Assembly: GCA_019454045.1 (NCBI GenBank)
Contig: SKCR01041567.1
Span: forward strand, 1-64,000
DNA length: 64,000 bases
Origin: Zanthoxylum bungeanum
Taxonomy: Eukaryota > Streptophyta > Magnoliopsida > Sapindales > Rutaceae
Direction of reading: 5' to 3'
Shown: piece by piece, positions 15,393-57,073 of the stretch
How positions within the stretch are numbered: the stretch's first letter is position 1
Layout: the number at the start of each line of letters is the position of its first letter
The notes under the pieces: model-generated
The model's input: only the letters and a program-made list of their open reading frames with translations
Database searches by the model: none
Told to the model about the DNA's origin: nothing
Position numbers and translations under genes: made by a program

Positions 15393-16004
15393 CTAGTTCA
15401 ACTTGGAAAGAATATGGTCAATTTTTGGTTCATAAGCTAAGAGTTGGTCAATTAAATTATCAGCTTTTCTTGTAGTTAGGAAGATATCTTTTACCGATTT
15501 TGAAATAAACCCATTTCTTCTGGCATCTTGAAGAAATACAAAAAGAAAATCGAAAAATCCATCAACATTAAACATTCCAATAGGTTTTTGGTGAATGTTC
15601 AAGTTCGCCCATAATGTCACTGTGAATATTTCTTCCAGTGTGCCCAGCCCACCTGGTAAAGCAATAAAAGCATCAACATGATTAATCATTTCAATAAGTC
15701 TTTCAGACATACCTGAGATAATGCATTCTTCTCCATTTGATTTTCCGCTTAGGTTTACGTCTGCCAAAGGTTTTGGAATGATCTCCAAAACTTGACTGCC
15801 ACCATCTTGTACGGCCTTTGAAATGCATCCCATCAATCCAAGATTCCCACCTCCATATACTAAGTGCATGTTTCTTTACGCCATGACTCTGCCCAATTCT
15901 TTTGCAGCCTTAAAAAATTCTGGTTTAGTTCCAGAGCTAGTTGTATAAAACACACAGATATTAGTGACTCGTCTTCTTGAAGTTGTATCCTTTTTTGTTC
16001 TCTC
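15393..16004 (-). pseudogene. LOG-family phosphoribohydrolase, intronless and broken
   Basis: Lonely-guy proteins release active cytokinin bases from their riboside 5'-monophosphates in the cytosol. The intact frame 15869-15393 (158 codons) carries YGGGNLGLMG, DAFIALPGGLGTLEE (the PGGxGTxxE nucleotide-binding motif) and KPIGMFNVDGFF. Upstream the frame continues with NICVFYTTSSGTKPEFF and AAKELGRVMA, which matches the family N-terminus. An in-frame TAA at 15876-15878 separates the halves, and no ATG precedes NICVF. The usual Arg-Lys of the active-site helix (family pattern RKAEM) reads RLIEM here. Plant LOG genes are normally multi-exon; here the whole coding region is continuous, so it looks cDNA-derived. 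A TATA-like site lies upstream. A truncated product from the internal Met would lack the first strand and helix of the fold, so enzyme activity is unlikely. Confidence 0.85.
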
Positions 16005-22949: not shown

Positions 22950-23104
22950 ATGATCAAATTCAAACAAAATAGGTCACTTTACTCTATAAGATAACATACA
23001 GGTAGCTTCCTTCAGTAAAAATTGAGATGTAACATTATGTTTTAACTATATAAGAAATAATACAATGATAATAATAAAGACAGAAATATTACTTTTACTT
23101 GCAC

Positions 23105-23855
23105 CTTCCCTGACAAAGTTGGAACATCAACCTTTCCACCAAGAATGCCCTGTGAGAAAATTCAAACTTTAGTTTATAGTAAGAGCTTACAATATATGAG
23201 CCTGTGAATGGATCAAGAAGTTAAAGGTAAATGAACACAATTAAGCTAAAATTTGATCTTTTAAAATGCCTAAAGACAGTGATGCATTTGCATGCCGAGT
23301 GGAGAAATTGACAGTGGCCTATATAGATCAGACCATAAGGAAAAACAGATAAATGCAATAAATATTTTACAATTCAGTTCTCACTTGTGTAAAGCTGATT
23401 TTAGAGTCCACGTATACATCTGCACCATCTCTAGAAAATATAGGATCATCAGCTACCTACATTAACAAAAGAAATGATTCTTTAGAAAGTAAAGGGAATA
23501 ATCATCTTAATTGGAGATTTTCCCTTCAGTGAAGAGAAATTAAAGAAAATTTCTCTTTATTGAAGAGAATATTCAATTTCATTTCAGTGAAGAGAAGATA
23601 AGTTAATCTTCATTCCAAAAACGAACATTGGCTTCTTTAATGACTAGCCTTTGAATGCACAAACCTACTTTGACTCACGTTGCTAATTTTCATGCATAGG
23701 TTAGTGAAACATCTACAGATAAATAATATAATCTAGCTAAGGAATAAATAGTGTAAACCATGCCTTTAATTTAATAAATAAATTCCCATGTTGACTTCCT
23801 CGCCTCCCAGCATTGCCAACCTCTGGTACACGTATTGTATCTCCAAAATCCACAC
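23105..23855 (-). pseudogene. ATJ1: ATJ1-like exons 12-14: substrate-binding domain
   Basis: 23855-23764 reads VDFGDTIRVPEVGNAGRRGS and ends NLFIKLK. 23456-23385 reads VADDPIFSRDGADVYVDSKI plus SFTQ. 23149-23105 reads GILGGKVDVPTLSGK. These are the C-terminal beta-sandwich segments of DnaJ, in order and in frame. The donor after exon 12 is GC rather than GT (23763-23762). The following coding part of the family (about 100 residues, beginning PKGTQP) is not recognisable between 22949 and 23104 or further left. It has been lost, displaced by insertions, or lies outside the window. Confidence 0.85.
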
Positions 23856-24464: not shown

Positions 24465-25099
24465 TGTTAGGGATTGTTATTTGGAGGGAATACAGAATGT
24501 TGACAAAAGCATACAAAGTACTGATAAGGGGGAGCAAAAGTTGATGAGCCACAAGTCCAAGGCCCACATAGACGGAAGGCCTCCAATCCAACATGTTTAT
24601 GAAAGAAAAGGGTAAAGGGGATGATGCGTGGAGAAATAATCAGCATGGCAACAGCTGGCAAGGGCAGGGAATTATGTTGCTGACGTGTGGGAAAAATTAG
24701 TTAAGGGTAATGATGAGGGCATGTGTTTGTGTTTGTATATATTGGTTAGTTACAGATAGTAGGGATATCTTTTTGGGAAATTATCTTTGGGTGTTTGTAG
24801 AGAAAAACTCTTCCTGGCAGTGGCCATGGGTACTTGGGTTTTTCTTGTTTTGTAATTAGAACTCCCAGCAGTGGCTGGTTAGAGCAAAACTACTATTTCT
24901 CCATCTTGTTTCTTTTTATTCTTCATTTAGAACTCTGTAATCTCTTTTAAATGAAAAGTGGAAAGAATATCAATTTCCTTAACTTGTCTGATTTCATGTG
25001 CTCTACTATTTGTCTTAGATTGTGTTCATTTTGCGTATCATCTCATTCAACAAGAACAATAGATCATCAAGTCATTTCACACGCTTCAGGGGCTTAACA
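24465..25099 (+). repeat. 5' LTR of the gene-capturing element
   Basis: TGTTAGGGATTGTTATTTGG to CAGGGGCTTAACA, followed by ATTGGTCCGACCAG, a primer-site-like stretch, at 25100. It matches 40584-41216 over its whole length with scattered substitutions and small indels. It contains a plausible TATA (GTATATATTGG, about 24736). Confidence 0.9.
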
Positions 25100-25133
25100 A
25101 TTGGTCCGACCAGCTGGATCTGTATAGAGGGAG

Positions 25134-25242
25134 ATGGCCACAACGAGATTGGAAACAAGGGTGAAGAATCTGGAAAAGAGGGCCACAAGGGTAGAAGGTG
25201 AGGTACAAAGCTTAAGGTGGGATGTAGAGTTGTTGACCACTC
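25134..25242 (+). pseudogene. Gag N-terminus of the gene-capturing element
   Basis: An ATG at 25134 opens a coiled-coil-like frame, with MATTRLETRVKNLEKRATRV at the start and DVELLTT before the break. It is interrupted at 25243 by the small copia and resumes at 28386 with LQSIGGDIDSIKNQIKTV in the same frame, to a TGA at 28499. The heptad-like Leu/Val spacing resembles the gag N-terminus of the chromovirus at 53700. The capsid domain and zinc knuckle are absent. Confidence 0.75.
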
Positions 25243-25658
25243 TGATAGGAACACCAATTATTCAACTCTTGAGACAAATATGGCAGTTGGCACTAATCTT
25301 GGAATAACATTCTCAGCCACAGATTTCTCTCAATCACATATCCAAGATCTACAAGAATCCTGTCAACAGCTCATTAACGGCTAGCATTGTCTAAGGATCT
25401 TGACTTGTGTTTTCCTTTTATGCTGCAAATCATCATATATAAATATGTCATGTATAGTTTGTAAGAAAACAAGAAAACGAACTACAAATTTTCACTCACA
25501 CAGCTTTAGTTTTTTTCATGGTATCAGTGACACAAATGGCTTCCAGCTCTAAATCTGAACCAACTTTGTCTCTCCAAACCTTCCATCAATGTGCAAGCTT
25601 TATTTCTATAAAACTCACCACTCAAAATTAGCTCATTTGGAGTTCTCAGATTCTGCCT

Positions 25659-26546
25659 TTGATCTACAGTCTTGGACTGGAACATCATATAATAGATGCT
25701 GAGATGCCATCACAATTCTTAAAAGGTGATGAAAAAGAAATACAAAATCCTGAGTTCCTTGCTTGGAAAATCAACGATGGACTTCTCATGTCATGGCTGA
25801 GAGGGATGATGACTGAAGATGTGTTAAGCATGATCATAGAAGTACAAAATGCTCAAGAGATCTGGCTTACCATTGAAGAGATCATGTTACCAGCAACCAA
25901 AGAACAAGAAACATGGCTAAAGGATAGCCTGTATTCCTTGAAGAAAGGAACATCAAGCTTGGAAGAATTCCTAAAAAGGTTTAAGGGGATCTGTGACAAC
26001 TTAGCTGCCATAGGGAAGCCAATAAGCGATGAAGACAAAGTGTTTCAAATTGCTCGTGCCTTAGGATCAAGATATGCTGACTTTAAGACTGCAATGCTCA
26101 CAAAACCACCTTATCCCAGCCTCAAACAGTTTCTTCATGCTCTTCAAAATCATGAACAAACTGTTATACCACAAAAAGATGAAAATGAGCATTTGAATTT
26201 GAATCATAATCAAGCATATTTTGGTCAAAGGGGCAGAGGACGAAATCAAAGAGGTGGAAGGTATGGCTCTCGTGGTATGGGTCCTCATCACAATAATGGT
26301 AGAAGACACAACTATTTCAATTCAAAATCCCACAGCTACAACTCCGACTCACAGCACTTCAACAAAAATAAAAGCCAGCCACATAAACCAAATACCGTGG
26401 ACCAGCAGAATAAAACTGACCCTGTTTTTTGTCAGATTTGTGGAAAAAAAATCATAGTGCACCTAATTGTTGGGATAGATATGAATATGATTATCATGAC
26501 GACGAGGCCCCTCAAGCTCATGTCTCAACAAATGCACAACCTTTGA
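25659..26546 (+). pseudogene. Copia gag (small element)
   Basis: A retrotransposon gag of the UBN2 type: WLKDSLYSLKKGTSSLEEFL and ALGSRYADFKTAML are typical capsid motifs, followed by an RG/RGG-rich nucleic-acid-binding stretch (RGRGRNQRGGRYGSRG) and the start of a CCHC knuckle (FCQICGK). A one-base change after CQICGK shifts the frame, so the rest of the knuckle and the protease (AHMTNDPGN, about 26574-26600) lie in other frames. The natural start is probably upstream near 25535, where MASSSKSEPTLSLQ-like sequence is visible before a stop. Confidence 0.8.
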
Positions 26547-26588
26547 ATGATCAACAATTTTACGCTGACTCTGGGCCACTGCTCATAT

Positions 26589-27470
26589 GACGAATGATCC
26601 AGGTAACTTAAATAATATTATGCCCTATAGAGGATTTGACAAAATCTATGTTGGTAATGACAAGGATTACAAATCTCTCATATAGGACATACAAGTTTAA
26701 GTACAAAACATGGACAATTAAAACTCAACAATGTTTTAGTTGTACCAAAAATACAAAAGAGCCTTCTTTCTGTTAGTCAATTTATTGATGATAATAATTG
26801 TATTTTTGAATTTAACACCGATGGCTTTGTTGTTAAGACCAAAAACAATCAGGTACTAGCCAAGGGACGTAGACAGGGGAGGCTGTTCGTGTTAGAAGAC
26901 AGATCCAATTTGGCTTTAACTACAACAAAAGGAAATCTTAAAGACTACATCTTATGGCACAAAAGGCTAGGGCATGCCAACTCCAAGATTTTACATGTTT
27001 TAAAAAATCATGGACTTATTAGTTTTTCTAGTTGGATAAAAAAACCTACTATTTGTGTTTCATGCCAATTAGGCAAAAGCTGTAGACAATCTTTCTCTTT
27101 ATCTAATAATAAATCAGATTTTCCTCTTCAAAAAATTCATTGTGATTTATGGGGACCTTCCCCTATTAAATCAAATCAAAATTTTAAATATTACGTACTA
27201 TTTATAGATGATTTCTCACGATTTTCTTGGTTGTTCCCTCTTAAAAATAAATCTGACTTTTTTGATTGCTTCTTAAATTTTCAGAAACAGGTGGAGAATC
27301 AATTAGACAAAAAAAATTAAAATCTTTCAATGTGATGGAGGAGGGGAGTTCCATTCCACGGCCTTCATTAAACATCTTGAACAATGTGGAATCCAAAGAC
27401 AAATCTCATGTCCTTACACCCATGAACAAAACGGTGTAGCAGAAAGAAAGCATAGGCACATTCACTCGGC
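26589..27470 (+). pseudogene. Copia protease-integrase fragment (small element)
   Basis: GAG-pre-integrase zinc segment HKRLGHANSKILHVLKNHGL and CVSCQLGK (HHCC type), then the integrase start KIHCDLWGPSP (first catalytic Asp) and FIDDFSRFSWLFPL (second Asp region). After a frameshift near 27318, QISCPYTHEQNGVAERKHRH carries the catalytic Glu. Sequence then jumps by deletion into RT/RNase H. Not functional. Confidence 0.82.
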
Positions 27471-28090
27471 CAGACATCACACATGCTGTAAATCAAGTTT
27501 GCCAGCACTTTCAAGCTCCCACAAAATCTGACCTTCAGGCAGTTAAACGTATTCTTCGATATTTGAAAGGAACTATTGATTTCGGCATCAAATTTCTGTT
27601 TCAAAGCTCCATCCATTTGTACGGCTTCTCGGATTCAGATTGGGCTGGTTGCCTTCTCACTCGTAGGAGCACCTCTGGTCATTGCTTCTACCTTGGTGCC
27701 AATCTCATCTCATGGAGTTCAAAAAAGCAAAACACAGTTTCTCGATCAAGTGCTGAAGCAGAGTATAGATCAATGGCATCCGCTGCAGCTGAACTTACAT
27801 GGATCATGTATCTGCTTCAAGACATTGGTCTTCAACCAACCAAAATACCCACATTCCTTTGTCACAACTTAAGTGCTTTACACCTGACCAGAAACCCGGT
27901 ATTTCATGCAAGAACGAAACATATAGAACTTGATGCCCATTTTGTTCGTGAAAAGGTAGCCTAAGGAACCATTCTCACAAAATATATTCCATCTCCTCTC
28001 CAAATTTCCGATGTGTTCACCAAGCCTCTCACCAAAAACATCTTCGCTGGTTTTCGACACAAACTTGGAGTGCATTGTATATCACTTCCG
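27470..28090 (+). pseudogene. Copia RT tail and RNase H (small element)
   Basis: Starts within the RT tail (RPDITHAVNQVCQHFQAP) and continues into RNase H: GFSDSDWAGCLLTRRSTSG, SRSSAEAEYRSMA and ARTKHIELDAHFVREKV. A TAA at about 27962 breaks the frame before ISDVFTKPLTKN. The palm domain with YVDD is deleted. The segment runs to the polypurine tract at about 28091. Confidence 0.85.
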
Positions 28091-28501
28091 AGTTTGAGGG
28101 GGGATGATAGGAACACCAATTACTCAACTCTTGAGACAAATATGGCTGTTGGCACTAATCTTGGAATAACATTCTCAGCCACAGATTTCTCTCAATCACA
28201 TATCCAATATCTACAAGAATCATGTCAATAGCTCATTAACGGCTAGCATTATCTAAGGATCTTGACTTGTGTTTTCCTTTTATGCTGCAAATCATCATAT
28301 ATAAATATGTCATGTATAGTTTGTAAGAAAACAAGAAAACGAAATACAAATTTTCACTCACACAGCTTTAGTTTTCTTCACACTCAACTACAGTCCATTG
28401 GTGGAGATATTGACAGTATCAAAAACCAGATCAAGACAGTGGATGATTTGAACCTGAAGTTAGATGCTATGAAAGAATTCCACAGTTTTATGATGAAGTG
28501 A

Positions 28502-29194
28502 ATGAAGGGAAAGAACTACACCCATGAAACGGAGCCCACATACACCCATGAAACGGAAACCACTCTAACACGGAATCAAAACCAAAACGTGAGTCCTACC
28601 TTGAATGGAGGCATGGTGAGTGAGATGGAAAGGAGAATGATCGAGGAAGAAATAACAGGAGGAGTCGGAGCAACCAAGGCTGGGGTGGCTACTGGATGGT
28701 CAAAAGAGACGAATACATATTGGTACAATAGCAGGGGACTTGCAGCAAATCAACGTATTGGGGTTTCAGTAAAATCCAATGGGCCTGAGTATGGGACAAG
28801 GTTTGGAGGTTTCAATGGAGGGCCTGGAATAAGTAGCCCACTTCAAAGTCAACAGACAATGACACAAACCCTAGGAGGGAGCCATGACCAAGGCACAACA
28901 ACTGAGAAATCACCAGCTTTGAATCATGAGATAAGCTCTACTTCTCAAGACAAGTTGTTTTCGGATTTTGAGCTGGATGAGACTGTGGGAACTCCGGTGA
29001 AGGATGAGACGCCATCGGAAGCCGCCGCAGTGGCTAAGCCGATTTTGGTGAGTATGCCAATTCCAGAGAAACAATACCAACAAAATTTCAGCTCATCAAG
29101 AAATACATGGGGGCGTTCATCAGTCGGTGCCCCAAGTTCAACGAACGAAAGGAAAACACCAGGGGAATTTAGAACTCGCCACTCTCTCTCATAG
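28502..29194 (+). CDS. Unassigned Ser/Gly/Thr-rich frame of the gene-capturing element
   Basis: 230 codons opening with a short repeat (THETEPTYTHETETT). Later stretches include GGFNGGPGISSPLQSQQT, LFSDFELDETVGTPV and NFSSSRNTWGRSSVGAP. Low-complexity and probably disordered. It follows the gag coiled coil in the same frame after one stop, and after a TAG at about 29192 the frame continues across the nested pair at 29223-38758 into the CIA1-PDK-VPS18 chimera. It may be degenerate gag or a further captured sequence; I do not recognise it. Confidence 0.45.
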   Translation: MKGKNYTHETEPTYTHETETTLTRNQNQNVSPTLNGGMVSEMERRMIEEEITGGVGATKAGVATGWSKETNTYWYNSRGLAANQRIGVSVKSNGPEYGTRFGGFNGGPGISSPLQSQQTMTQTLGGSHDQGTTTEKSPALNHEISSTSQDKLFSDFELDETVGTPVKDETPSEAAAVAKPILVSMPIPEKQYQQNFSSSRNTWGRSSVGAPSSTNERKTPGEFRTRHSLS

Positions 29195-29222
29195 ATTTCT
29201 GTTGCAAACAGATACAACTCTG

Positions 29223-29559
29223 TGTTGTGATTCACCGATCACTCTTGGAGTGTTTGAGGAAAAACCGAATTGTATTTATTACTACAAGAATAAATACTAC
29301 AAGTTTACAACAAGAAACTCAAAGAAAAAACCTCACACTCTCTCTATACAATTTACACTCACTTTGGGATAATGATAACTGAGCTCTAAGGCTCCTTTTA
29401 TAATGTCCAAACCGCGTGCTACAGTAACACGCGGTTTGACAGCTTCTGCCAGCTTCTCATTTGGCAAGTTGAAGGTGTCTTCATCATGCTTTCGGTGGAA
29501 AGCATGCCAGCTGCATTTGGTGCAGCTCTATGCATGTTCTGCATGCATGTGAACCAACA
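29223..29559 (-). repeat. B1 3' LTR
   Basis: Minus-strand sense TGTTGGTTCACATGCATG to GGTGAATCACAACA, 337 bp. Contains the palindrome AAACCGCGTG/CACGCGGTTT (29409-29438) just upstream of a TATA-like ATTATAAAAGG. Near identical to 33592-33918. Confidence 0.88.
29409..29438. promoter_or_regulatory. Palindrome upstream of the LTR TATA (B1 3' LTR)
   Basis: AAACCGCGTG, a 10 base spacer or loop, CACGCGGTTT. Equivalent palindromes occur at 33768-33797, 34031-34062 and 38536-38567 in the other three LTRs, always a few bases before the TATA-like site. The arms are conserved while the spacers differ between B1 and B2. A transcription factor site or an RNA/DNA hairpin are both possible. Confidence 0.6.
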
Positions 29560-29741
29560 AATCTCCCACTCGGTGAAGATTTTTCCAAATCTGAGCCGAC
29601 CATCAATCATCCAAACTGGATCCTCAAAGGATCCTCCCCTGGCTACATCTGTATGACTGCCTACGTACCCTGAGTTGGGATAAAGCCAATCGTAGTTCTC
29701 TGTATCTGAAAACAATCATCATCTGACAGCTATCCCGGTTA

Positions 29742-29935
29742 TGTCTCTGCACAACTCTAGCTTGTCCCAATCATCGTTCCTTTGTTGACATGTCGGCTGT
29801 GTCTCTGCACAGCACACTTCACTGCATCTCTGTACAGTATTCTCCTGCTATGTTTCTGCATAGTACAATCCACTGTGTCTCTGCACAGTTTTCTTCTGTT
29901 GTGTCTCTGCACAGTTTTGACGCCATGTTTCTTCA
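29742..29935 (-). repeat. Tandem array derived from the RNase H C-terminus
   Basis: Five to six units of about 24-27 bp, each containing CTGTGCAGAGACAC or a variant on the minus strand. They correspond to the LCRDTT codons at the end of the B2 polyprotein (38225-38263). The array replaces the deleted RT/RNase H of B1. Confidence 0.72.
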
Positions 29936-29947
29936 CCCATTTGTTCC

Positions 29948-31582
29948 TCAGTGCCTTCTTGCCTTTGGGAAACTCTCTGGCTCCCCCACATCAGTAAGCA
30001 GAATATATTCGGATCCCGGATATCTGGTTGATGGAATCCTGCCTCGCTCAGATCTTCTTGTCTGAGGTCCACTGGTTTCAGGAGGTCTATCATCATCCAT
30101 CTCTGTGAATGATCTTGTAGCTTCTAGTTGAGTGGGTTGCGGCTCCCCCTGCTCAACACTTTCTTCTGTAATCTCCGATGGAACAGGCTGTGTCTCCCCC
30201 TGCTCAACATCTTCATTTGCCTCCTCTGGTTCTGCTTCTGGAATTTCCTCGTGCACCCTGTCTGTGGCCAATTGTGCTGGTGCTGGGTCTGGATTTCTGT
30301 TGGCACTAGTATTGGAAGACATTCTGGGCATTTCAATGTCTTCAATTGTTCGGTCTTCAAGAATCTCTACTTCTTGGCTTCTGATGACCATCTTCACCTT
30401 CGGATCCCATAGTCTGTATCCAAATTCTTCATCTCCATGGCCTAGAAATATACATGGAGTTATCCTTGCATCGAGCTTCTCCCTGAGCTCATTGGATACA
30501 TATACAACGGCTAAACAACCGAATACTCTAGGGTGAGTGTATGCGGGATTCTTACCAGACCACAATTTCTCCGGAATCTCCAAGTTCAACGGTTCACATG
30601 GTGATCTGTTTATCAGGTAACAGGCAGCACGAACAGCTTCTCCCCAGAATGGCTTTGGCAGCTTAGCCATACTGATCATTCCTCTGACTTTCTCCATAAT
30701 GGTGCGGTTCATACTTGCAGCGACACCATTATGTTGTGGAGTGTGTGGAACAGTTCTCTCATGTCGAATGCTATGTCTCATGCAGTAGGCTTCGAATTCC
30801 CTGGAACTGTACTTGCCTCCATCGTCTGTGCGAAGGCACTTCAGCTTCTTCCCTGTTTCATGCTCTACCATGGCGTGGAACAGCTTGAATTGATCTAAGA
30901 CCTGATCCTTCGTCTTGAGGAAATACACCCAGATTTTCCGTGAAGCATCATCGATGAAAGTCAGAAAATATTTGTTACCGCCCAATGAATCAACCTCCAA
31001 GGGACCACAAACATCAGAGTGCACCAGACTTAGCAACTCTGATCTTCTCTCTAAAGAGAAATCAAATGAGACTCTGCGTTGCGTACCAATTGAGTAGTGG
31101 TTGCAAGGACCTCGTGCAACATCCTTGGTAAGCTCATTCTTGTTCAGGGTAGACAACCCTCTCCCACTCATGTGTCCGAGTCTCTGGTTCCACAGATTTT
31201 GAGAAGCTTCTTTTTCAGCTACATTAAGGCTGTCTGCACAAATCTTCACATTAGTCTTGTATAGTGCACCGCAAGCATGTCCTCGGGCGACAACCATGAC
31301 ACTGGTTGTGATTCTCCATGTGCCATTTCTGAAGTGATTTTCATAGCCCTGTTTGTCAAGAGCTATCCCCGAGAGTACATTCAGCCGAAGTTCAGGAACA
31401 TGCAGGACATCCTTCAAGGTCAATGTACACCCGACATTTGTCCGCAACTTAATATCACCCATTCCTACTATCCCAGAGGAACTGATATTTCTCATCTTCA
31501 CTGCTCCAAAGTCTCCCGCTTTGTAGGTTGTGAAGTAATCCCTGTGAGGAGTGATGTGGTAGGATGCTGCAGTATCTACCAC
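29948..31582 (-). pseudogene. B1 protease-integrase polyprotein fragment
   Basis: 544-codon frame. It opens at the protease active site VDTAASYHITPHRDYF. GAG-pre-integrase is next (NLWNQRLGHMSGRGL; CNHYSIGTQ replaces the CNHCLFGK form, so a zinc Cys is lost). The integrase core has HSDVCGPLE, FIDDASRKIWVYF and PQHNGVAASMNRTIMEKV, where the catalytic Glu position (normally VxERMNRT) reads ASMNRT, so activity is unlikely. The C-terminal part FGCLAVVYVSNELREKLDAR and a TRRSERGRIPSTRY linker follow. It stops at the deletion point where RT should begin. Confidence 0.87.
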
Positions 31583-32411
31583 CCACTCAACATCTTGGGT
31601 TGCGTTGTGAAGGCATGTCTCTTCCTGTATGGAGCATATTGCTACATCTGCTTAACGACCAGTGTCTCTCCTTCGTCATTCTTCGGCTGGTGATTGCCTT
31701 CTCTCTGCTCTCGTTGCAGTTTCCGGCAATTCTTCTTTAGGTGGCCTACAATGCTACAATGGTAGCACTTATAGGTAGGCTTCCTTCCATCTGAGGATCT
31801 ACCCCTGGTTGTGCTTCTGCCTCTCTCTCCGTCTCTTCCTTGATGTCTTCCTCGAGTCTCTGTGACGAAGGCTTCTATCTGTTCTGAGCCAACATCTGTC
31901 AGTTGCGGACAAATGTACACCCGATATTTGTCCGCAACTTAATATCACCCATTCCTACTATCCCAGAGGAACTGATATTTCTCATCTTCATTGCTCCAAA
32001 GTCTCCCGCTTTGTAGGTTGTGAAGTAATCCATGTGAGGAGTGACGTGGTAGGATGCTGCAGTATCTACCACCCACTCAACATCTTGGGTTGCGTTGTGA
32101 AGGCATGTCTATTCCTGTATGGAGCATATTGCTACATCTGCTTGGACAACGACCAGTGTCTCTCCTTCGTCATTCTTTGGCTGGTGATTGCCTTATCTCT
32201 GCTCTCGTTGCAGTTTCCGGCAATTCTTCTTTAGGTGGCCTACAATGCTACAATGGTAGCACTTATAGGTAGGCTTCCTTCCATCTGAGGATCTACCCCT
32301 GGTTGTGCTTCTGCCTCTCTCTCCGTCTCTTCCTTGATGTCTTCCTCGAGTCTCTGTGACGAAGGCTTCTGTCTGTTCTGAGCCAACATCTTTTCTCCGG
32401 GACTCCTCATT
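31430..32411 (-). repeat. 490 bp tandem duplication in B1 gag-protease
   Basis: The block starting ATTTGTCCGCAACTTAATAT at 31436 recurs at 31926, and the block ending GTTCTGAGCCAACATCT at 31897 recurs at about 32391. The offset is about 490 bp. Both copies contain the zinc knuckle (CYHCSIVGHLKKNC) and the first protease codons. The duplication breaks the polyprotein. Confidence 0.85.
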
Positions 32412-32963
32412 CGACAGGGCATCTTTTACCATAGGCATGGTAACTTTACCTCCTGGAGCGGAATTGCTGAGAGTAACCACCAATGTCTCCCAGCTATCAG
32501 GAAGGGAACTGAGTAGTAAGAGGACTTGTACTTCATCTCCCAGCTGCATGTCTACTGCAGACAACTGGTTCACCAGGCTTTGAAACTTGTTGGTGTGTTC
32601 TGCAACGAAAGTTCCACTCCGTAGCTTTAGGTTCACCGAACGCCTCATGATTAAGGCCTTATTCTGAGCTGTTTTGGCCTAGAACATGTCTTCCAATTTC
32701 CTCCACATTTTATAAGCATTTGTGTCATGTGCTACGTGGTGGAAGACACTGTGACCGATCCACTGCCTAATCTGACCCAAAGTTCTGTTGTTGAGTTTAT
32801 TCCAGTCATACTCCTTAACAGACTCTGGTTTCACTCCCTTCATCTCGATGACATCAAACAGATCTTTACAATGTAAAAAATCTATCATCCTAGGTCTCCA
32901 GAGGGAGTAATTAGTGGCAGCCAATTTAATCATTGTACCAGAATGGGTATCTTCCATTTCCAT
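32193..32963 (-). pseudogene. B1 gag
   Basis: Starts MEMEDTHSGTMIKLAATNYS (32963). The copia capsid motif LWRPRMIDFLHCKDLFDV follows and, after a stop near 32676, LKLRSGTFVAEHTNKFQSLV and LLLSSLPDSWETLVVTLS. The zinc knuckle is CYHCSIVGHLKKNC. Matches B2 gag almost residue for residue. A stop and the downstream duplication make it non-functional. Confidence 0.88.
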
Positions 32964-33164
32964 TTTAAATTTTAAAGTTTAAAATGAAAATATACTAAAA
33001 TTGGGGCTAAATTTCACAAATCTGAGGTCACTGTTGCGTCCGGAACGGTCGAAAATGGTGGAATAGACATTTCGTTGGTCTAAATCCACACAGGGACTGA
33101 TTTGTAAATTCCTAAAGATTTTGGGGGCAAAATTGTAAATTTCAAAACTTCAGGGGGCTAAATG

Positions 33165-33345
33165 AAATTCACCAGGCTGCTGATGTGGCGCTGACGTGGC
33201 AGATGACTGGGCGCTGATGTGGCGGATGACGTGGCACTGACTGGGCGCTGACGTGGCGCTGACTGTGCGCTGACGCGGCGCTGACTGTGCGCTGACGTGG
33301 CGCTGATGTGGCGGCTGACTGGACTCGTCTTCAACCTTCAGTGCT
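33165..33345 (-). repeat. TGACG-rich minisatellite in B1 leader
   Basis: An array of short GC-rich units (GCTGACGTGGC, GCTGACTGGGC, about 11 bp period on the plus strand) between primer site and gag. The B2 leader (34490-34625) carries the same array in its own sense. Units contain ACGTCA/TGACGT cores, the kind bound by plant bZIP/TGA factors. Confidence 0.65.
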
Positions 33346-33591
33346 CGTGTGGCGCATGGCAGCAAGTGGCGGTGCGTGGGAGTTCTCTGCCAGGCGCGTG
33401 CGGACTCCCTGGACCTCCGTTTGATCACCGGAAAATACCACCGTGCTCGTCTTGACGTGAACTAGCTGATGGTATGCTCAAAGTTGATTTTTGACAACTT
33501 TTCCGGAACTCGAATTTTCCGAACCGAGCTCCGTTCTTCAATTTTTCGACCCCAAAGAAGAACCAAAGCTCTGATACCACTTGTTGTGATT

Positions 33592-33918
33592 CACCGGTCA
33601 CTCTTGGAGTGTTTGAGGAAAAACCGAATTGTATTTATTACTACAAGAATAAATACTACAAGTTTACAACAAGAAACTCAAAGAAAAAACCCCACACTCT
33701 CTCTATACAATTTACACTCACTTTGGGATAATGATAACTGAGCTCTAAGGCTCCTTTTATAATGTCCAAACCGCGTGCTACAGTAACACGCGGTTTGACA
33801 GCTTCTGCCAACTTCTCATTTGGCAAGCTGAAGGTGTCTTCATCATGCTTTCGGTGGAAAGCATGCCAGCTGCATTTGGTGTAGCTCTATGCATGTTCTG
33901 CATGCATGTGAACCAATA
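33592..33918 (-). repeat. B1 5' LTR
   Basis: Near identical to 29223-29559. Its outer terminus reads CCAATA on the plus strand instead of CCAACA, one base away from a canonical end. Only AATATT (33919-33924) separates it from the B2 LTR. Palindrome at 33768-33797. Confidence 0.85.
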
Positions 33919-33924
33919 AATATT

Positions 33925-34245
33925 TGTTGAATCATTCACAGCTTGCATGCATCATGCATGCAAGCTGTACTCAAAACCAGTGTGACAGCCTTCACACAGC
34001 AAGGAAGACGTGTGAAGCTATCAGCAAATGCCAAACCGCGTGGCACTGTTCACGCGGTTTGGGCACTATAAATTGGAGCCCCATTGCTTTGTAAAATCAT
34101 CCCAAAGTGAGTGTAAATTGTATAGAGAGAGTGAGGTTTTTTTCTTTGAGTTTCTTGTTGTAAACTTGTAGTATTTATTCTTGTAGTAATAAATACAATT
34201 CGGTTTTTCCTCAAACACTCCAAGAGTGATCGATGAATCACAACA
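33925..34245 (+). repeat. B2 5' LTR
   Basis: TGTTGAATCATTCACAGC to GATGAATCACAACA. Palindrome CCAAACCGCGTG, 8 base spacer, CACGCGGTTTGG (34031-34062), then TATAAAT at 34067. The R-U5 part matches B1 closely while U3 diverges. Confidence 0.9.
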
Positions 34246-34489
34246 AGTGGTATCAGAGCTTTGGTTCTTCTTTGGGGTCGAAAAATCGAAGAACGGAGCT
34301 CGGTTCGGAAAATTCGAGTTCCGGTAAAGTTGTCAAAAATCAACTTTGAGCATACCATCAGCTAGTTCACGTCGAGACGAGCACGGTGGTATTTTCTGGC
34401 GATCAAACGGAGGTCATGGGAGTCCGCACGCGCCAGGCAGAGAACTCCCACGCGCCGCCACGCGCGCTGAAGGTTGAAGGCGAGTCCAG

Positions 34490-34625
34490 TCAGCCGCCAC
34501 GTCAGCACACAGTCAGCGCACAGTCAGCGCCGCATCAGCGCCCAATCAGCGCCATGTCAGCGCCCAGTCAGCGCCACGTCAGCGCCCAGTCAGCAGACAC
34601 GTCATCCGCCACGTCAGCAGCCTGG
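34490..34625 (+). repeat. TGACG-rich minisatellite in B2 leader
   Basis: About a dozen units such as CACGTCAGCGC and CAGTCAGCGC with a period near 10-12 bp, between primer site and gag. It is the plus-strand counterpart of 33165-33345, and unit number and order differ between the two. Confidence 0.65.
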
Positions 34626-34833
34626 TAAATTTCATTTAGCCCCATGAGGTTTTGAAATTTACAGTTTGCCCCCAGAATCTTTAGGAATTTACAAATCAGT
34701 CCTTGTGTCGGATTTAGACCAACGAAGTGTCTATTCCACCATTTTCGACCGTTTCGGACGCAACAGTGACCTCGGATTTGTGAAATTCAGCCCCGATTTT
34801 AGTATATTTTCATTTTAAACTTTAAAATTTAAA

Positions 34834-35839
34834 ATGGAAATGGAAGATACCCATTCCGGTGCAATGATTAAATTGGCTGCCACTAATTACTCCCTCTGGA
34901 GACCTAGGATGATAGATTTTTTACATTGTAAAGATCTGTTTGATGTCATCGAGATGAAGGGAGTGAAACCAGAGTCTGTTAAGGAGTATGACTGGAATAA
35001 ACTCAACAACAGAACTTTGGGTCAGATTAGGCAGTGGATCGGTCACAGTGTCTTCCACCACGTAGCACAGGACACAGATGCTTATGAAATGTGGAGGAAA
35101 TTGGAAGACATGTTCCAGGCCAAAACAGCTCGGAATAAGGCCTTAATCATGAGGCGTTTGGTGAACCTGAAGCTACGGAGTGGAACTTCCGTTGCAGAAC
35201 ACACCAACGAGTTTCAAAGCCTGGTGAACCAGTTGTCTGCAGTAGACATGCAACTGGCAGATGAAGTTCAAGCCCTCCTGCTACTCAGTTCTCTTCCTGA
35301 TAGTTGGGAGACTCTGGTGGTTACTCTCAGCAACTCAGCTCCAGGAGGCAAACTTTCCATGCCTATGGTAAATGATGCCTTGTCAAATGAAGAAGCCAGA
35401 AGAAAAGACGTGGGCTCAGATCAAACAGAAGCCCTTGTCTCGGAGCAGCGAGGAAGACAACAGGAGAAACATCAAGGTGGAAGGAGAGGCAGAAGCAAAA
35501 GCAGGGGCAGATCCAAAGAACAAGTGCTTCCACTGTGGCATTGAAGGCCACTTGAAGAAGAATTGCCGAAAACTGCAACGAGAGCAGAGAGAAGGCAATA
35601 ACCAGCCGAAGAAGAATGATGCGGAGACACTAGTAGTTACCACAGTAGATGTAGCTATATGCTCCGGCCAGAAAGAAACATGCCTTCACACCGCAACTCA
35701 GGATGTCGAGTGGGTGGTAGATACTGCAGCATCCTACCACGTCACTCCTCACAGAGATTTCTTCACAACATACAAAGCAGGAGACTTTGGAGCAGTGAAG
35801 ATGGGATACCAGTTCTTCTCAGATAGTAGGAATTGGTGA
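34834..35839 (+). pseudogene. B2 gag and protease
   Basis: Gag starts MEMEDTHSGAMIKLAATNYS (34834) with LKLRSGTSVAEHTNEFQSLV and LLLSSLPDSWETLVVTL. A frameshift near 35480-35530 moves the zinc knuckle CFHCGIEGHLKKNC into the frame that continues to the protease motif EWVVDTAASYHVTPHRDFF. The frame then ends at 35839 after a second shift. Capsid, knuckle and protease active site are all recognisable. Confidence 0.88.
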
Positions 35840-35846
35840 AATATAG

Positions 35847-36728
35847 TTGAGGACAAATGCAGGGTATACCATAACCCTGAAGAAGGTCAGACATGTTCCA
35901 GAACTTCGGCTCAACTTACTCTCGGGGGTAGCCCTTGACAAACAGGGCTATGCTAGCCACTTCAGCAACGGCACCTGGAGAATGATCAAAGGTGCTATGG
36001 TCATCGCCCGAGGACACATCTGTGGAACCTTGTACAAGACTCATGTGAAGATATGTGCAGAAAGCCTTAATGTAGCTGAACGGGAGGCTTCTCAGAATCT
36101 GTGGCACCAGAGACTCGTTCACATGAGTGAAAGAGGGTTGTCTACCTTGACGAAGAAGGATCTAATCACCGTCTCCAAAAATGCTACTCTGGATCCTTGC
36201 AACCACTGTCTATTCGGTAAGCAACACAGAGTCTCTTTCAATTTCTCTTCTACAAAGAAATCAGAGTTACTCAGTCTGGTGTACTCTGATGTATGTGGTC
36301 CATTGGAGGTAAACTCACTAGGCGGTAATAAATATTTTCTGACTTTTATTGACGATGCTTCTCGGAAAGTATGGGTGTATTTTATGAAATCAAAGAATCA
36401 GGTCCTGGACTATTTCAAACTGTTCCATGCCATGGTCGAGCGTGAAACAGGGAAGAAACTGAAGTGCCTTCGTACAGACAATGGAGGTGAATACACTTCC
36501 AGAGAGTTCGATGCCTACTGCGGAAGTCACGGCATTCGACACGAGAGGACTGTTCCACGCACCCCACAACACAATGGTGTCACTGAAAGGATGAACCGCA
36601 CCATTATGGAGAAAGTCAGAAGCATGATCAGCATGGCCAAGCTGCCAAAGCCATTCTGGGGAGAAGCTGTTCGTGCCGCCTGCTACCTGATCAACAGATC
36701 ACCATCTGTACCGTTGAACTTTCAATGA
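35847..36728 (+). pseudogene. B2 integrase fragment
   Basis: 293 codons: GAG-pre-integrase (NLWHQRLVHMSERGLSTL; DPCNHCLFGK with the CxxC intact), then the core with YSDVCGPLE, FIDDASRKVWVYFM, TDNGGEY and PQHNGVTERMNRTIMEKV, which retains the Glu. The first His motif reads HQRLVHM where HxRLGHM is usual. The frame ends at a stop created by the deletion joining it to RT. Confidence 0.87.
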
Positions 36729-38264
36729 AGCAGTATCTCATAAAGACAAAGACAAATGGCTGCACGCAATGCAGGATGAGATGGAATCTTGCAGAAGAAT
36801 AACACTTATAAGATAGTCAAACTCCCACATGGAATGAAGGCACTGAAGAACAAATGGGTATTCAAGCTCAAGAAAGATGGCAGCGGAAAAGTGGTGAAAC
36901 ACAAAGCTCGGCTAGTGGTCAAAGGATTCCTACAGAAAAAAGGAATTGACTTTGATGATATTTTTCACCGGTGGTAAAAATGGCTTCAATCCGAGTTATC
37001 CTAGGATTAGTAGCCAGATTGAACTTGGAGCTTGAACAGATGGATGTCAAAACAACATTTCTTCATGGTGATCTGAATGAAGAAATCTACATGGAGCAGC
37101 CAGAAGGATTCAAGGTTTCAGGAAAAGAAAACCTTGTCTGCAAGCTGAAAAAGAGCTTGTACGGGCTCAAGCAAGCACCGAGGCAATGGTACAAGAAGTT
37201 CAACTCATTCATGGTGGGTCAAGGCTACAAAAGAACTGCAGCAGATCAGTGTGTATACATTCAGAGGTTTCCAGATGGAAATTTTGTTGCTCTTCTACTG
37301 TATGTAGATGACATGTTGATTGTTGGACAAGAAGCAGCGAAGATCAGCCAGCTGAAGAAGGAACTCTCCAAGGCTTTTGACATGAAAGACTTGGGACCAT
37401 CTCAACAGATTTTGGGAATGGAGATTGTTCGTGACAGAGAACAAGAAGTTATGGCTTTCACAGGAGAGATATATTGAACGGGTAATCAGAAGGTTCGATA
37501 TACAGAAAGCCAAACCAGTCAGCGTTCCGCTAGCGCACCATTTCAAACTGAGCAAGAGTTTGTGCCCCTCATCCAAGAAAGAGATAGAGGAAATGTCAGC
37601 AATACCATATTCTTCAGCTGTTGGAAGTCTAATGTATGCAATGGTATGTACCATGCCAGATATTGCACACGCAGTGGGTGTAGTGAGCCGTTTTCTCTCT
37701 AACCCTGGAAAGCAACATTGGGAGGCAGTCAAATGGATTCTCAGGTACCTCAAGGGTATAACGAAGTTTCGTCTGTGTTACGGGGGAGCTGATCCGATCT
37801 TGGAAGGCTATATAGATTCAGATATGGTGGGAGATCTTAATGGTAGGAAATCTACATCAGGATTCATTTACACTTTTGCAGGGGGAGATGTGTCATGGCA
37901 GTCAAGATTGCAGAGGTGTATTGCATTATCCACAACAGAGGCTGAGTACATTGCCATAGCTGAGGCAGGAAAAGAAATGTTGTGGCTAAAGCGTTTTCTC
38001 CAAGAGTTAGGGATCAAACAGACAGAATTCAAGATACATTGCGACAGTCAAAGTGCTCTGGACTTGAGCAAGAACTCAATGTATCATTCCCGGACGAAAC
38101 ACATTGATATTCGCTATCACTGGATACGCGAGGTGATGGATCAACAGCTGATGAGACTAGTGAAGATCCATACAGATGAGAATCCAGCCGACATGTTAAC
38201 GAAAGTGGTTACCCGAGACAAGCTAGAGTTGTGCAGAGACACAACCGGGATAGCTTTCAGATGA
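36729..38264 (+). pseudogene. B2 reverse transcriptase and RNase H
   Basis: RT across three frames: MKALKNKWVFKLKKDGSG, KARLVVKGFLQKKGIDFDDI, QMDVKTTFLHGDLNEEIYME, LLLYVDDMLIVGQE. After a frameshift at about 37450, RNase H is complete (YIDSDMVGDLNGRKSTSGF, STTEAEYIAIAEAGKEM, HSRTKHIDIRYHWIREVMD, NPADMLTKVVTRDKLELCRD). It stops at 38264 before the 3' untranslated region. RNase H looks intact; RT is interrupted by two small shifts. Confidence 0.88.
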
Positions 38265-38429
38265 CGATTTTTTTTTTCGGATACATAGAACTACGATTGG
38301 CTTGATCCCAACTCAGGGTACGTAGGCAGTCATACAGATCCAGTCAGGGGAGGATCCTTTTGAGGATCCGATTTGGATGATTGATGGTCGGCTCAGATTT
38401 TAGGGCAAATCTTCACCGAGGGGGAGATT

Positions 38430-38752
38430 TGTTGAATCATTCACAGCTTGCATGCATCATGCATGCAAGCTGTACTCAAAACCAGTGTGACAGCCTTCAC
38501 ACAGCAAGGAAGACGTGTGAAGCTGTCAGCAAATGCCAAACCGCGTGGCATTGTTCACGCGGTTTGGGCACTATCAATTGGAGCCCCATTGCTTTGTAAA
38601 ATCATCCCAAAGTGAGTGTAAATTGTATAGAGAGAGTGTGAGGTTTTTTTCTTTGAGTTTCTTGTTGTAAACTTGTAGTATTTATTTTTGTAGTAATAGA
38701 TACAATTCGGTTTTTCCTCAAACACTCCAAGAGTGATCAGTGAATCACAACA
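38430..38752 (+). repeat. B2 3' LTR
   Basis: TGTTGAATCATTCACAGC to AGTGAATCACAACA. Palindrome 38536-38567; the TATA-like site reads TATCAAT where the 5' LTR has TATAAAT. Followed by ACTCTG (38753-38758). Confidence 0.9.
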
Positions 38753-40743
38753 ACTCTGTCCTTAACAGAAGCTCGATGGTTGATTTGTTGCCTATACTGA
38801 TTCTGTACTGTGATAATGGAATTGAGCCAAAATTTAATGGTCCCGGTTTGGCTTCTGGAAATACTAGATTGGGACAAGCCCAGAGCAAAAGAAACAAGCT
38901 GAGAGAGATTCCAAGGCTCGAAGGCCACACCGATAGAGTTTGGAGCCTAGGTTGGAAATCGCTCACTTTCATCGGTGCTCTGTCGGTCTTGGCATCGTGT
39001 AGCGGCGAAAGAAACACACGAATTGGGGAGCAGAACACCCCCTTCATTCTGCGAGCAAAAAAACAAGAATGGTTCCATATGGGTTTCTTGATTTGGAAAC
39101 CACCTTTCACCAACTCCCTAATGTTCTACCTGGAGCTGGCCATGAAGAATTCGTTGACGAGCCAAAACTTGCCGCATCCACATTTCAGCATACTAGCGGC
39201 AAGCCGTTTTTGGAACTGCAAGGCAGTTTTGGAGGAAAGTTATGATAACACTATCAAGGCTGTAGAAGTAAAGGTTGTTAAGGGATTGTGGGAAACGTTG
39301 TCGAAGAGCTTGATAGAAGAGGTTCAGCGGTGGGAATGCATGAAACAAACAAGTGTCCAGCGATGGAGATGCATGCAACAAGAAGGTGTCAACTTGAAGT
39401 ACGTGATGGAGTTTGGTTCAAAACCTACAGAAAAACAATTGTTAATTTCTACTATGTTTCTTCACAAATGGCTTCCAATTAGAATCGCTAGGCGAGCATG
39501 TGGGCTCGAGACCCTCCCTTACGGCTTGTCTGAGAAGCCTGCCATTTTGAGAGTTAGAGACTGGTATTGGGACTCAGTTCTTCATTTGAGGTTGTTTCCT
39601 GACATTAAAAGTACGTGCGAAGAAAGAGATTTAGCACAAATGATTAATGCAATTAAGGTGAGGCATAATTTTGTGATTCCCATGATGGCCTTGGGGGTTC
39701 AACAGTGGAGGAAATGGATGGATCCCAAGATTTTTTATGAGGATCTGGACGAGCTTCATCAGTTTCTGAATCTGTTTTTTATGGCTAGGGTTGGAATTTG
39801 TATGCTTATAGCAAGGTTGTGTATAGTGATTGATTTCTGCTACTGGATTTGGTTTAACTCAGCTTCTATGAAGGAAATCCTTTTCGGTACAGATCACAGC
39901 CAACTTCACGAGAGGGATGTGGAAGAGAAGGACAAGAGGGAGACATACGTAAAACCTTTATTTGAATTGAATGAACTTCCGGAAGCTTTTATGGATTTGC
40001 AAATGGAAATTGCTAGCTTAAGCAATGGTACAACATATTTAGATAGTGTTGTGCATTTCATGGAACTTCTTGGTGAAATTCCAAACGGTGAATTGCATTT
40101 CTTTATCAAGCAAAAAAGAGCGATGCATTTTGCGTGGCTTTCTGGAGCAGGTATATATCATGGTGGCCTGAAATTTGGAGCAAAATTTATTTCTCCAATT
40201 GGTGATGAAGATTTTGTGGAAAACAAGGCTCTGTTGAGCTATTCAAAATTTTCTGAAAGTGCTGAAGCAGTTAAACCCAGTTCCATGATAGAGTCTGAAT
40301 TTCATTTCCTGCTATTTATGGGGAATAAGGTTAAGGTTGTGAATAGAATCAGCGAGCAAATCATAGAAGAATTTCAATTTGATCAAACATCAGACTCCAT
40401 TTCAAGGGGTATCATTGGAGTGTGCAGTGAGGCATCTGTTGGGGTGTTCTATGCATATGTCCCGAATTTTATTTTTCAGGTATCTATCAATGATGAAGGC
40501 CGAGATATGTGGAAGGTAAACCTGGCGCAACAAATTCCAAGAGATGGACTTGGGGACAAGTCCAAGGTTACGACGGGAGGAATTGTTAGGGATTATTATT
40601 TGGAGGGAATGCAGAATGTTGACAAAAGCATACAAAGTACTGATAAGGGGGAGCAAAAGTTGATGAGCCACAAGTCCAAGGCCCAAATAGAGGGAAGGCC
40701 TCCAATCCAACAGGTTTATGAAAGAAAAGGGAAAAGGGGATGA
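38740..40743 (+). CDS. Chimeric captured-gene ORF (CIA1-PDK-VPS18)
   Basis: A 667-codon open frame inside the gene-capturing element, running from the B2 LTR edge into the 3' LTR at 40584. Before the nested insertion the frame continued upstream through 29219 to 28502 with one stop. The order is an unassigned lead (38753-38898), CIA1 WD40 pieces (38899-39036, about 39205-39260), PDK (39289-39822), VPS18 (39871-40518). All three host pieces read in the sense direction and in one frame, without introns, but each is internally deleted or rearranged, so none keeps a full catalytic or binding domain. The openness over 2 kb is notable for a transposon passenger. It may reflect recency or selection for a reading frame. 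I infer no function. Confidence 0.85.
   Translation: MNHNNSVLNRSSMVDLLPILILYCDNGIEPKFNGPGLASGNTRLGQAQSKRNKLREIPRLEGHTDRVWSLGWKSLTFIGALSVLASCSGERNTRIGEQNTPFILRAKKQEWFHMGFLIWKPPFTNSLMFYLELAMKNSLTSQNLPHPHFSILAASRFWNCKAVLEESYDNTIKAVEVKVVKGLWETLSKSLIEEVQRWECMKQTSVQRWRCMQQEGVNLKYVMEFGSKPTEKQLLISTMFLHKWLPIRIARRACGLETLPYGLSEKPAILRVRDWYWDSVLHLRLFPDIKSTCEERDLAQMINAIKVRHNFVIPMMALGVQQWRKWMDPKIFYEDLDELHQFLNLFFMARVGICMLIARLCIVIDFCYWIWFNSASMKEILFGTDHSQLHERDVEEKDKRETYVKPLFELNELPEAFMDLQMEIASLSNGTTYLDSVVHFMELLGEIPNGELHFFIKQKRAMHFAWLSGAGIYHGGLKFGAKFISPIGDEDFVENKALLSYSKFSESAEAVKPSSMIESEFHFLLFMGNKVKVVNRISEQIIEEFQFDQTSDSISRGIIGVCSEASVGVFYAYVPNFIFQVSINDEGRDMWKVNLAQQIPRDGLGDKSKVTTGGIVRDYYLEGMQNVDKSIQSTDKGEQKLMSHKSKAQIEGRPPIQQVYERKGKRG
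38899..39260 (+). pseudogene. Captured CIA1/CIAO1 (WD40) fragments
   Basis: LREIPRLEGHTDRVWSLGW followed by SVLASCSGERNTRIGEQN matches the first WD40 blade of the cytosolic iron-sulfur assembly protein CIA1/CIAO1, which passes Fe-S clusters to target proteins. The usual RIWEQ reads RIGEQ, losing the WD Trp. At about 39205-39260, FWNCKAVLEES and YDNTIKA resemble later CIA1 stretches, so at least one internal deletion joined them. 39040-39205 between them is unassigned. Most of the seven-blade propeller is missing. Confidence 0.78.
39289..39822 (+). pseudogene. Captured pyruvate dehydrogenase kinase fragment
   Basis: Matches the N-terminal four-helix domain of mitochondrial PDK, which phosphorylates the PDH E1-alpha subunit: SKSLIEEVQRW, YVMEFGSKPTEKQLLISTMF, LPIRIARRACGLETLPYGLS, KPAILRVRDWYWDS, AIKVRHNFVIPMMALGV, LDELHQFLNLFFMARVGI. 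The catalytic GHKL ATPase half (N-, G-boxes) is absent, so no kinase activity. A 33-nt tandem duplication (39325-39357 and 39358-39390) doubles QRWxCMxQxxV. No introns, whereas plant PDK genes are multi-exon. Confidence 0.92.
39871..40518 (+). pseudogene. Captured VPS18 fragment
   Basis: Matches the N-terminal (Pep3/Vps18) region of VPS18, a core subunit of the HOPS/CORVET tethering complexes at the vacuole and endosomes: KEILFGTDHSQLHE, EKDKRETYVKPLFELNELPE, ELHFFIKQKRAMHFAWLSGA, YSKFSESAEAVKPSSM, GNKVKVVNRISEQIIEEFQF, SRGIIGVCSEASVGVFYAY, NDEGRDMWKV. A segment of roughly 30 residues is missing after SNGTTYLDS. The alpha-solenoid and RING parts are absent. Intronless. Confidence 0.93.
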
Positions 40744-41216
40744 TGTGTGGAGATATAATCAGCATGGCAATAGCTGGCAAGGGCATGGAATTATGTTGCT
40801 GTCGTGTGGGAAAAATTAGTTAAGGATAATGATGAGGGCATGTGTTTGTGTTTGTATATATTGATTAGTTACAGATAGTAGGGATATCTTTTTGGGAAAT
40901 TATCTTTGGGTGTTTGTAGAGAAAAGCTCTGCCTCGCAGTGGCCATGGGTGCTTGGGTTTTTCTTGTTTTGTAATTAGAACTACCAGCAGTAGCTGGTTA
41001 GAGGAAAACTACTATTTCTCCATCTTGTTTCTTTTTATTCTTCATTTAGAGCTATGTAATCTCTTTTAAATGAAAAGTGGGAAGAATATCAATTTCCTTA
41101 ACTTGTCTGATTTCATTCGCTCTATTATTTGACTTAGATTGTGTTCATTTTGCGTATCATCTCATTCAACTCAAACAATATCATCAAGTCATTTCACACG
41201 CTTCAGGGGCTTAACA
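40584..41216 (+). repeat. 3' LTR of the gene-capturing element
   Basis: TGTTAGGGATTATTATTTGG to CAGGGGCTTAACA, followed by the GATTC target duplication (41217-41221). Aligns to 24465-25099 over its length. Confidence 0.92.
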
Positions 41217-57067: not shown

Positions 57068-57073
57068 TATGGG

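Follow-up and report, generated by a model that had tools for sequence, protein, structure and literature searches.

An LTR retroelement of Zanthoxylum bungeanum that joins pieces of at least four host genes, and related elements with other host-gene pieces

How did pieces of several host genes come to lie between the long terminal repeats (LTRs) of one retroelement, and is the long reading frame that they form a gene? These questions are raised by an element at positions 24465-41216 of a 64,000-nucleotide stretch of Zanthoxylum bungeanum DNA (contig SKCR01041567.1, positions 1 to 64,000; hereafter the window). A first-pass annotation, made from the letters of the window alone, had described its interior as a chimera of CIA1, PDK and VPS18, captured at the RNA level. 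Our analysis found that introns were lost exactly, that the chimera exists in three copies, and that related elements hold other host-gene pieces and share modules in differing combinations. The explanation that we favour, with a probability of about 0.85, is a non-autonomous lineage derived from chromoviruses, in which the middle of the element would have been filled by template switching onto packaged, spliced host mRNAs.

The LTRs of the element (24465..25099 and 40584..41216, plus strand), located by repeat comparison, are 635 bp long and 95% identical, with the termini TGTTAG...TAACA; they differ by 30 substitutions and one gap run over 633 sites, a Kimura two-parameter (K2P) distance of 0.049. 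GATTC is found directly outside both, as first reported, so that TG..CA ends and a target-site duplication, the marks of an LTR retrotransposon, are present. The 5' LTR is followed by a candidate primer-binding site, ATTGGTCCGACC (25100..25111), and the 3' LTR is preceded by the purine-rich GGGAGGAA, a candidate polypurine tract; both resemble those of relatives. A gag start (MATTRLETRV..., 25134..25242, plus strand) is broken by a nested copia-type element, and the remainder of the gag N-terminal region lies at 28381..28564 (plus strand); both parts are 98% identical to an element on contig C44830. The stretch at 40527..40583 (plus strand) holds the end of a pol frame and the purine-rich region, with a GGACTTG/CAAGTCC hairpin, and is common to many relatives. 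The proposed span is thus bounded by LTRs as described, but it also holds three nested copia-type elements, without which the outer element comprises 25100-25242, 28381 to ~29221 and 38754-40583.

The chimeric frame (38737..40743, plus strand) is open for 668 codons from stop to stop, with its first ATG at 38776; its first 17 bases lie in the LTR of a nested element and its end lies in the 3' LTR. Pfam comparison matched it to BCDHK_Adom3, the PDK N-terminal domain (E=1.8e-33, frame amino acids 218-359), and to Pep3_Vps18, the Vps18 propeller (E=6e-30, amino acids 434-584), while the CIA1 part gave no Pfam match. The frame includes a module, M1 (38795..38889), which is 78% identical to a sibling element on C22455 (L019). 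The CIA1 piece (38894..39259) contains exon 1, the exact exon 1/2 joint and, after a jump, the end of a later exon; its exon 1 part is broken by ~165 nt of other sequence (~39044-39210), partly related to a repeat on C47135, C31603, C16352 and C4730. The PDK piece (39264..39809) begins a few bases before the presumed start codon, joins exons 1 and 2 exactly and contains a ~33-nt partial duplication. The VPS18 piece (39808..40525) lacks five introns, jumps over ~25 codons and begins with 55 nt of retained intron. M1 and the three pieces lie on the plus strand, and the pieces of CIA1, PDK and VPS18 are all read in their parental frames. The description of these three genes as one sense, intronless frame therefore holds apart from the interruption in CIA1 and, in VPS18, the retained intron sequence and the skipped codons. 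The count of three was too low, since the element carries pieces of at least four host genes, the fourth, gene D, having been missed.

The parental genes were sought in the whole genome (3.96 Gb, 51,709 contigs), where copy and match counts are lower bounds. Searching with 38753-40583 yielded at least 56 matches, comprising the window, two further copies of the chimera, parental exons and other sequences, many of which were matches to the 57 nt that immediately precede the 3' LTR. Parental exons were matched on C32426, C14139, C44457, C509, C21702, C33880 and C32110 for PDK and on C18176 and C16356 for VPS18, and the CIA1 piece matches one host exon on C35506 at 76%. The first exon of the CIA1 parent matches solved Ciao1/CIAO1 chains, and also many other WD-repeat chains. 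A protein search with the chimeric frame returned 591 matches; the chimera was absent among the 120 matches listed, each of which carries the Vps18 domain PF05131 and covers 33-36% of the query, and among these 120 the VPS18 exons of the genome were closest to Citrus and Melia.

Comparison with the parental genes showed that the 184-nt intron between PDK exons 1 and 2 is missing from the element with exact exon ends, that five VPS18 introns (136-588 nt, one with a GC donor) are missing at exon ends, and that CIA1 exons 1 and 2 are joined exactly. At the sixth VPS18 interval the sequence jumps from within an exon to a later exon across a shared TATT, skipping ~25 codons, and this is one of two non-splice joints located inside exons at 4-nt repeats (AAGA and TATT). 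Segments that lack their parental introns at exact exon ends show an origin in spliced RNA and not in separate insertions of genomic DNA. The same joints were also found in other copies of the element. RNA-level capture, as first suggested, is therefore upheld, with the 55 nt of intron at the VPS18 edge as the exception, and a sequential order of capture is plausible.

Two other origins of the chimera were considered. Separate processed pseudogenes inserted into an existing LTR element would likewise be free of introns, but inspection by eye found no poly(A) tract or target duplication at the joints, the fragments begin and end inside exons, are all in the sense orientation and closely abut, and identical joints recur in sister copies, which makes this origin very improbable. 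Construction of the chimera by a Pack-MULE- or Helitron-type DNA transposon, later enclosed by LTRs, is less probable still. Such transposons often hold several gene pieces, as does this element, but they copy genomic DNA with its introns, which here were cut out exactly except for the 55 nt in VPS18. Moreover, relatives with LTR-type 5-bp duplications have their host pieces flanked by the gag start and the pol end, and no parental introns or DNA-transposon ends were noticed in the block, although no search was aimed at such ends.

Gene D, as we label the fourth host gene, occupies 28864..29085 (plus strand) and matches C18648, C15494 and C28969. Its exons stand in the order 1, 2, 3 in the host genome, and the element has the 3' part of exon 2, the start of exon 3, the end of exon 1 and the 5' part of exon 2, in an arrangement that is a circular permutation of the spliced sequence. 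The 1/2 and 2/3 splice joints are exact, and the halves of exon 2, which is 42 nt long, come together at its nucleotides 14-19. Matches to exon 2 are short (25 and 30 nt, E 0.005 and 1e-4) and were partly read by eye. Where exon 3 meets exon 1, the breakpoint falls within both exons, at an AAGA repeat, and is therefore no ordinary back-splice. One possibility, which would supplement capture by template switching and which we hold only tentatively, is that a circular RNA served as the template for gene D, with reverse transcriptase entering and leaving it at one point in exon 2. A single turn round a circle would make the exon 2 halves meet within a few bases, as they do, and would need two template switches where a linear mRNA needs three. 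On the other hand, the exon 3/exon 1 joint is not at splice sites, jumps along a linear mRNA would yield the same order, and no more than one such permuted block was seen.

The search for other copies with the same joints identified two, on C25799 (85%) and C23250 (84%). Both share the PDK|VPS18 joint and the joint between VPS18 and the 3' end with the window, and they share a 33-34-nt duplication with each other. C23250 has parts of gene D, CIA1, PDK and VPS18, indicating that the ancestor held all four. Both sister copies have decayed, with stops and frameshifts. With window changes polarised by the sister copies and the parental genes, those of the window lineage fall at codon positions 1, 2 and 3 in the proportion 17/23/23, the start of the C23250 row in this alignment being misplaced in a way that affects that copy's own counts. 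In the well-aligned interval 39553-40526 the window shows 25 synonymous, 70 nonsynonymous and 1 stop-class changes, against a neutral expectation of 23%, 73% and 4%, and the sister copies show 11/21/3 and 8/13/3. No protein-level constraint on the chimeric frame was visible in either the codon-position or the synonymous-share test.

These counts bear on whether selection has kept the frame open because it works as a gene, an idea put forward for maize Bs1. Neutral change predicts ~2.3 stops and 1.1 frame-breaking indels since insertion, yet all 668 codons are open, with a probability of ~0.036 since insertion and ~0.001 since the split from the sister copies, and the CIA1, PDK and VPS18 pieces keep their parental frames. 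Against this, the three codon positions are hit evenly, the substitution classes follow neutral proportions, each sister copy carries three stop-class changes in addition to its frameshifts, and neither Pfam match spans its whole profile. The probabilities of openness are moreover biased, since the frame was noticed for being open, and for this reason the codon result outweighs them. A functional gene is accordingly unlikely, and that reading of the frame found no support; in view of the missing codon-level constraint, we treat the frame as a passenger, most likely running from captured exons into an old pol end.

Six related elements (L019, L023, L048, L049, L050 and L051) were read. L019 and L023 came from the search with 38753-40583, L048, L049 and L050 from short LTR pairs (a pair on C36666 being left out), and L051 was picked because it shares a module with L023. 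L019 carries a receptor-kinase piece (E 5e-35 against 4l68), a weakly matched RRM (9e-5), PDK exon 2 (86% to the parent) and a sequence with weak armadillo-like similarity (2.6e-7 against an engineered protein and 0.008 against a named armadillo chain); it is located, in sense orientation, in an intron between two Rab-type GTPase exons (L019 993-1409 and 7216-7656). L023 (C25056) has receptor-kinase (2e-9) and PPR (1.5e-6) matches, and L048 (C28510) has matches to gag (3e-5), eL27 (1.6e-7), NAP (1e-21) and PPR (1.4e-7). L049 (C31545) and L050 (C19760), which are 97% alike, carry pieces of loci on C24086 and C34015, together with a piece of a GH35 gene whose Pfam match (2e-4) falls below the cut-off. 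In L051 (C42492), pyruvate kinase (1.4e-9), a weak cold-shock match (0.016) and SnRK2 (7e-16) were detected.

Several of these pieces also appear to derive from spliced RNA. For L019, the presumed kinase and armadillo parents each match as two blocks, with ~95 and 370 nt between them, and these blocks lie side by side in the element. The presumed NAP1 parent of L048 likewise gives two blocks, with 91 nt between them, and each source locus of L049 and L050 gives two that are separated by 84-599 nt in the host and adjoin in the element. In L019, L048 and L049 the gaps between blocks (84-599 nt), which are closed in the element, are as would be expected of removed introns, this evidence being at the level of matched blocks and not of single bases.

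The relatives differ in their host genes and share modules. The last 821 internal bp of L023 and L048, comprising PPR and the end, are 93% identical, and their upstream genes differ; L051 shares 589 bp with L023 at 93%, after which SnRK2 replaces the PPR of L023 and the common end follows at 81%. Elements on C49427, C32970 and C25730 hold nearly the whole L019 chimera (query 66-2351 of 2351) at 86-87%, with a gag part 92-93% like that of L048; C49427 and C32970 have similar scores and may therefore represent two haplotypes of a single locus. M1 and PDK occur both in the window and in L019, and their order is the same. The L019 PDK piece is 86% identical to the parent and 75% to the PDK of the window, suggesting either that PDK was taken twice or that the lines split soon after one capture. 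LTR K2P distances were 0.104 for L019, 0.073 for L023, 0.049 for the window, 0.033 for L048, 0.012 for L050 and 0.005 for L049, indicating that the family has been active over a long period and recently. Six elements (the window, L019, L023, L048, L049 and L050) were compared for target-site duplications, and all but L019 have matching 5-bp duplications.

The kinship of the lineage is suggested by two elements with chromodomain matches, L041 (C37007) and L042 (C43055), which have a gag start like that of the window and a pol end upstream of a presumed LTR; gag starts similar to that of the outer element were also found in L019 and L023. L042 matches SH3-like, integrase C-terminal and chromodomain profiles, and L041 the chromodomain. 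The pol of L041 ends in ...QFPKFGLGDKSFLKEGG just before TGTTG, taken as the LTR start, and the frame of the window runs ...QQIPRDGLGDKSKVTTGG just before its 3' LTR; the two ends resemble each other (blastp of the window frame end against L041, E 1e-6, and against L042, 7e-4, in a set of three sequences). L041 also has ATTGGTCCGACC before its gag start, the same letters that follow the 5' LTR of the window and the presumed LTR of L041. Neither the chimeric frame nor the frame at 28502-29194, the element's own frames tested and both outside the nested elements, has a Pfam match to protease, reverse transcriptase, RNase H, integrase or chromodomain. The outer element thus resembles the chromodomain element of the same genome in primer site, gag N-terminus and pol end, and differs from chromoviruses, which have their own pol and chromodomain, in lacking such matches in these frames. 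It therefore lacks the pol of its own that would place it among Ty3/gypsy chromoviruses; it is filed here as derived from, and not a member of, that group, and the host pieces thus occupy the place of gag and pol. When the 28502-29194 frame and the L049 frame were compared with proteins, no match reached E <= 0.001.

By BLAST, the LTR of the window matches L041 only at the last bases and the primer site, and L041 is for this reason regarded as kin and not as a partner. An element on C44830 (LTRs 97% and 95%), as read outside 373901-390999 of the contig, does not resemble an autonomous partner: its gag start is followed by foreign sequence, and at the far end stand the 137 nt with which the chimera closes. 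There are copies and relatives in which no pol could be recognised.

Near the 3' end of the outer element, GGACTTGGGGACAAGTCC (40546-40563) forms a hairpin that is also found in the sister copies and L041. In RNA folding of the terminal 64 nt the GGACTTG/CAAGTCC hairpin had a z of -2.2, with 6/200 shuffles folding equally well, and the primer-site region (66 nt) folded no better than shuffles (z 0.7).

We envisage the following course for the lineage. The element would retain what mobilisation in trans needs, namely LTRs, primer site, gag start, pol end and purine-rich tract, and its enzymes would be provided by an autonomous relative. Spliced host mRNAs, here of gene D, CIA1, PDK and VPS18, would be packaged alongside element RNA, and reverse transcriptase would switch template onto them, replacing the middle of the element. 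Recombination between packaged element RNAs would then reshuffle the modules among relatives. Several observations weigh against this account. The VPS18 piece begins 55 nt upstream of its exon, within an intron, and therefore not all of the template was fully spliced, although another splice site is possible since the piece starts after an upstream AG. At the PDK|VPS18 joint no more than ~2 nt are common to both sides, and microhomology is thus not present at every joint. The related elements were chosen from match lists and form a non-random sample of the family; the evidence for intron loss among them covers L019, L048 and L049, but not L023 or L051; and L019 has no matching 5-bp duplication. 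Finally, the analysis turned up no intact autonomous element carrying this LTR, and the chromodomain relative shares only the primer site, gag start and pol end.

The three nested elements lie outside the chimera. Element Z (25243..28380, plus strand; LTRs 25243-25518 and 28105-28380, 276 bp) has gag and integrase remnants, its gag match in Pfam being copia-type. Elements X (~29222-33921, minus strand) and Y (33922-38753, plus strand), which together occupy 29222..38753, belong to one family, have integrase and pre-integrase matches and are presumably copia-type. LTR K2P distances are 0.030 for Z and 0.018 and 0.022 for X and Y, and this lower divergence indicates that all three are younger than the outer element. 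In 29210-38775, X and Y are in opposite orientation ~5 bases apart, and ACTCTG flanks the pair and not each element, as if they had entered as one composite. X contains a tandem duplication of ~480 bp (31422-32391, 97.5%).

The outer element is in an intron of a DnaJ-type chaperone gene on the opposite strand, as the first-pass annotation had placed it, with exons of that gene on both sides. The J-domain exon is at 59447-59539 (Pfam 3.3e-10), zinc-finger exons between 42244 and 42692 gave two matches below the cut-off (0.007 and 0.01), and exons at 23764-23853, 23385-23456 and 23093-23158 match consecutive parts of DnaJ_C, each weakly (0.007 to 0.06). Several LTR elements nested within the gene (23093-59539, minus strand) have stretched it to 36 kb or more. 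Direct repeats of 2.6 kb (43292-45875 and 50150-52722, 97.5% identical) flank minus-strand retroelement frames and are probably the LTRs of another large element. A further element at 53014-59199 has 654-bp direct repeats (98%) and broken gypsy-type gag-pol frames; in the repeat comparison of the window its repeats did not match the LTR of the outer element. Outside the gene, a minus-strand frame at 15393-15875, likely a host exon, matches the lysine-decarboxylase/LOG family (Pfam 2.6e-31).

In maize Bs1, an LTR element, pieces captured from three host genes form one chimeric frame, which is reported to be transcribed and translated (PMC13317346). The window element is like Bs1 in having several intronless host-gene pieces between its LTRs and in one chimeric frame, but holds pieces of at least four genes and has relatives with other pieces and shared modules. 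Host gene fragments within LTR elements have also been surveyed in maize, with 425 such elements (PMC2774510), and in rice and sorghum, with 672 and 1,343 captured genes, respectively (PMC3726574). Under its own conditions the maize survey found no element with fragments of more than one standard nuclear gene (PMC2774510), in contrast to several of the elements described here. Abnormal template switching between unrelated packaged RNAs has been proposed for Veju and BARE-2 (PMC13317346), where the donors were an unknown sequence and another element, respectively, and not spliced host mRNAs as here. Pseudogenes derived from mammalian circular RNAs have a circularisation joint between exons, for example exon 6-exon 2 (PMC5345220); gene D resembles them in the permuted exon order of a retro-copied sequence and differs in that its joint lies inside exons, at a 4-nt repeat, in a plant LTR element. 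Among the papers listed in a search of the open-licence literature, none dealt, judging by its title, with multi-host-gene capture by chromoviruses. Within the literature searched, a set of related elements that share modules and differ in their multi-gene chimeras, as well as a circularly permuted capture, seem to be new.

In the literature found, multi-gene capture by one plant LTR element otherwise rests on maize Bs1. The youngest elements of the present lineage have 0.5% LTR divergence. It is conceivable, at rather less than even odds, that the lineage is a standing system of exon shuffling at the RNA level, in which non-autonomous elements reduced to their packaging and priming ends habitually take up spliced host mRNAs, at least once perhaps a circular RNA, recombine modules among themselves and deliver multi-gene chimeras into introns, and in which a conserved end such as the terminal hairpin may favour co-packaging of host RNA. 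Related elements whose differing chimeras are framed alike by LTR, gag start and pol end make joints, donors, ages and swaps comparable, and such a series allows one to ask which host RNAs are packaged, how reverse transcriptase switches between them, and whether retroelements steadily feed exon shuffling.

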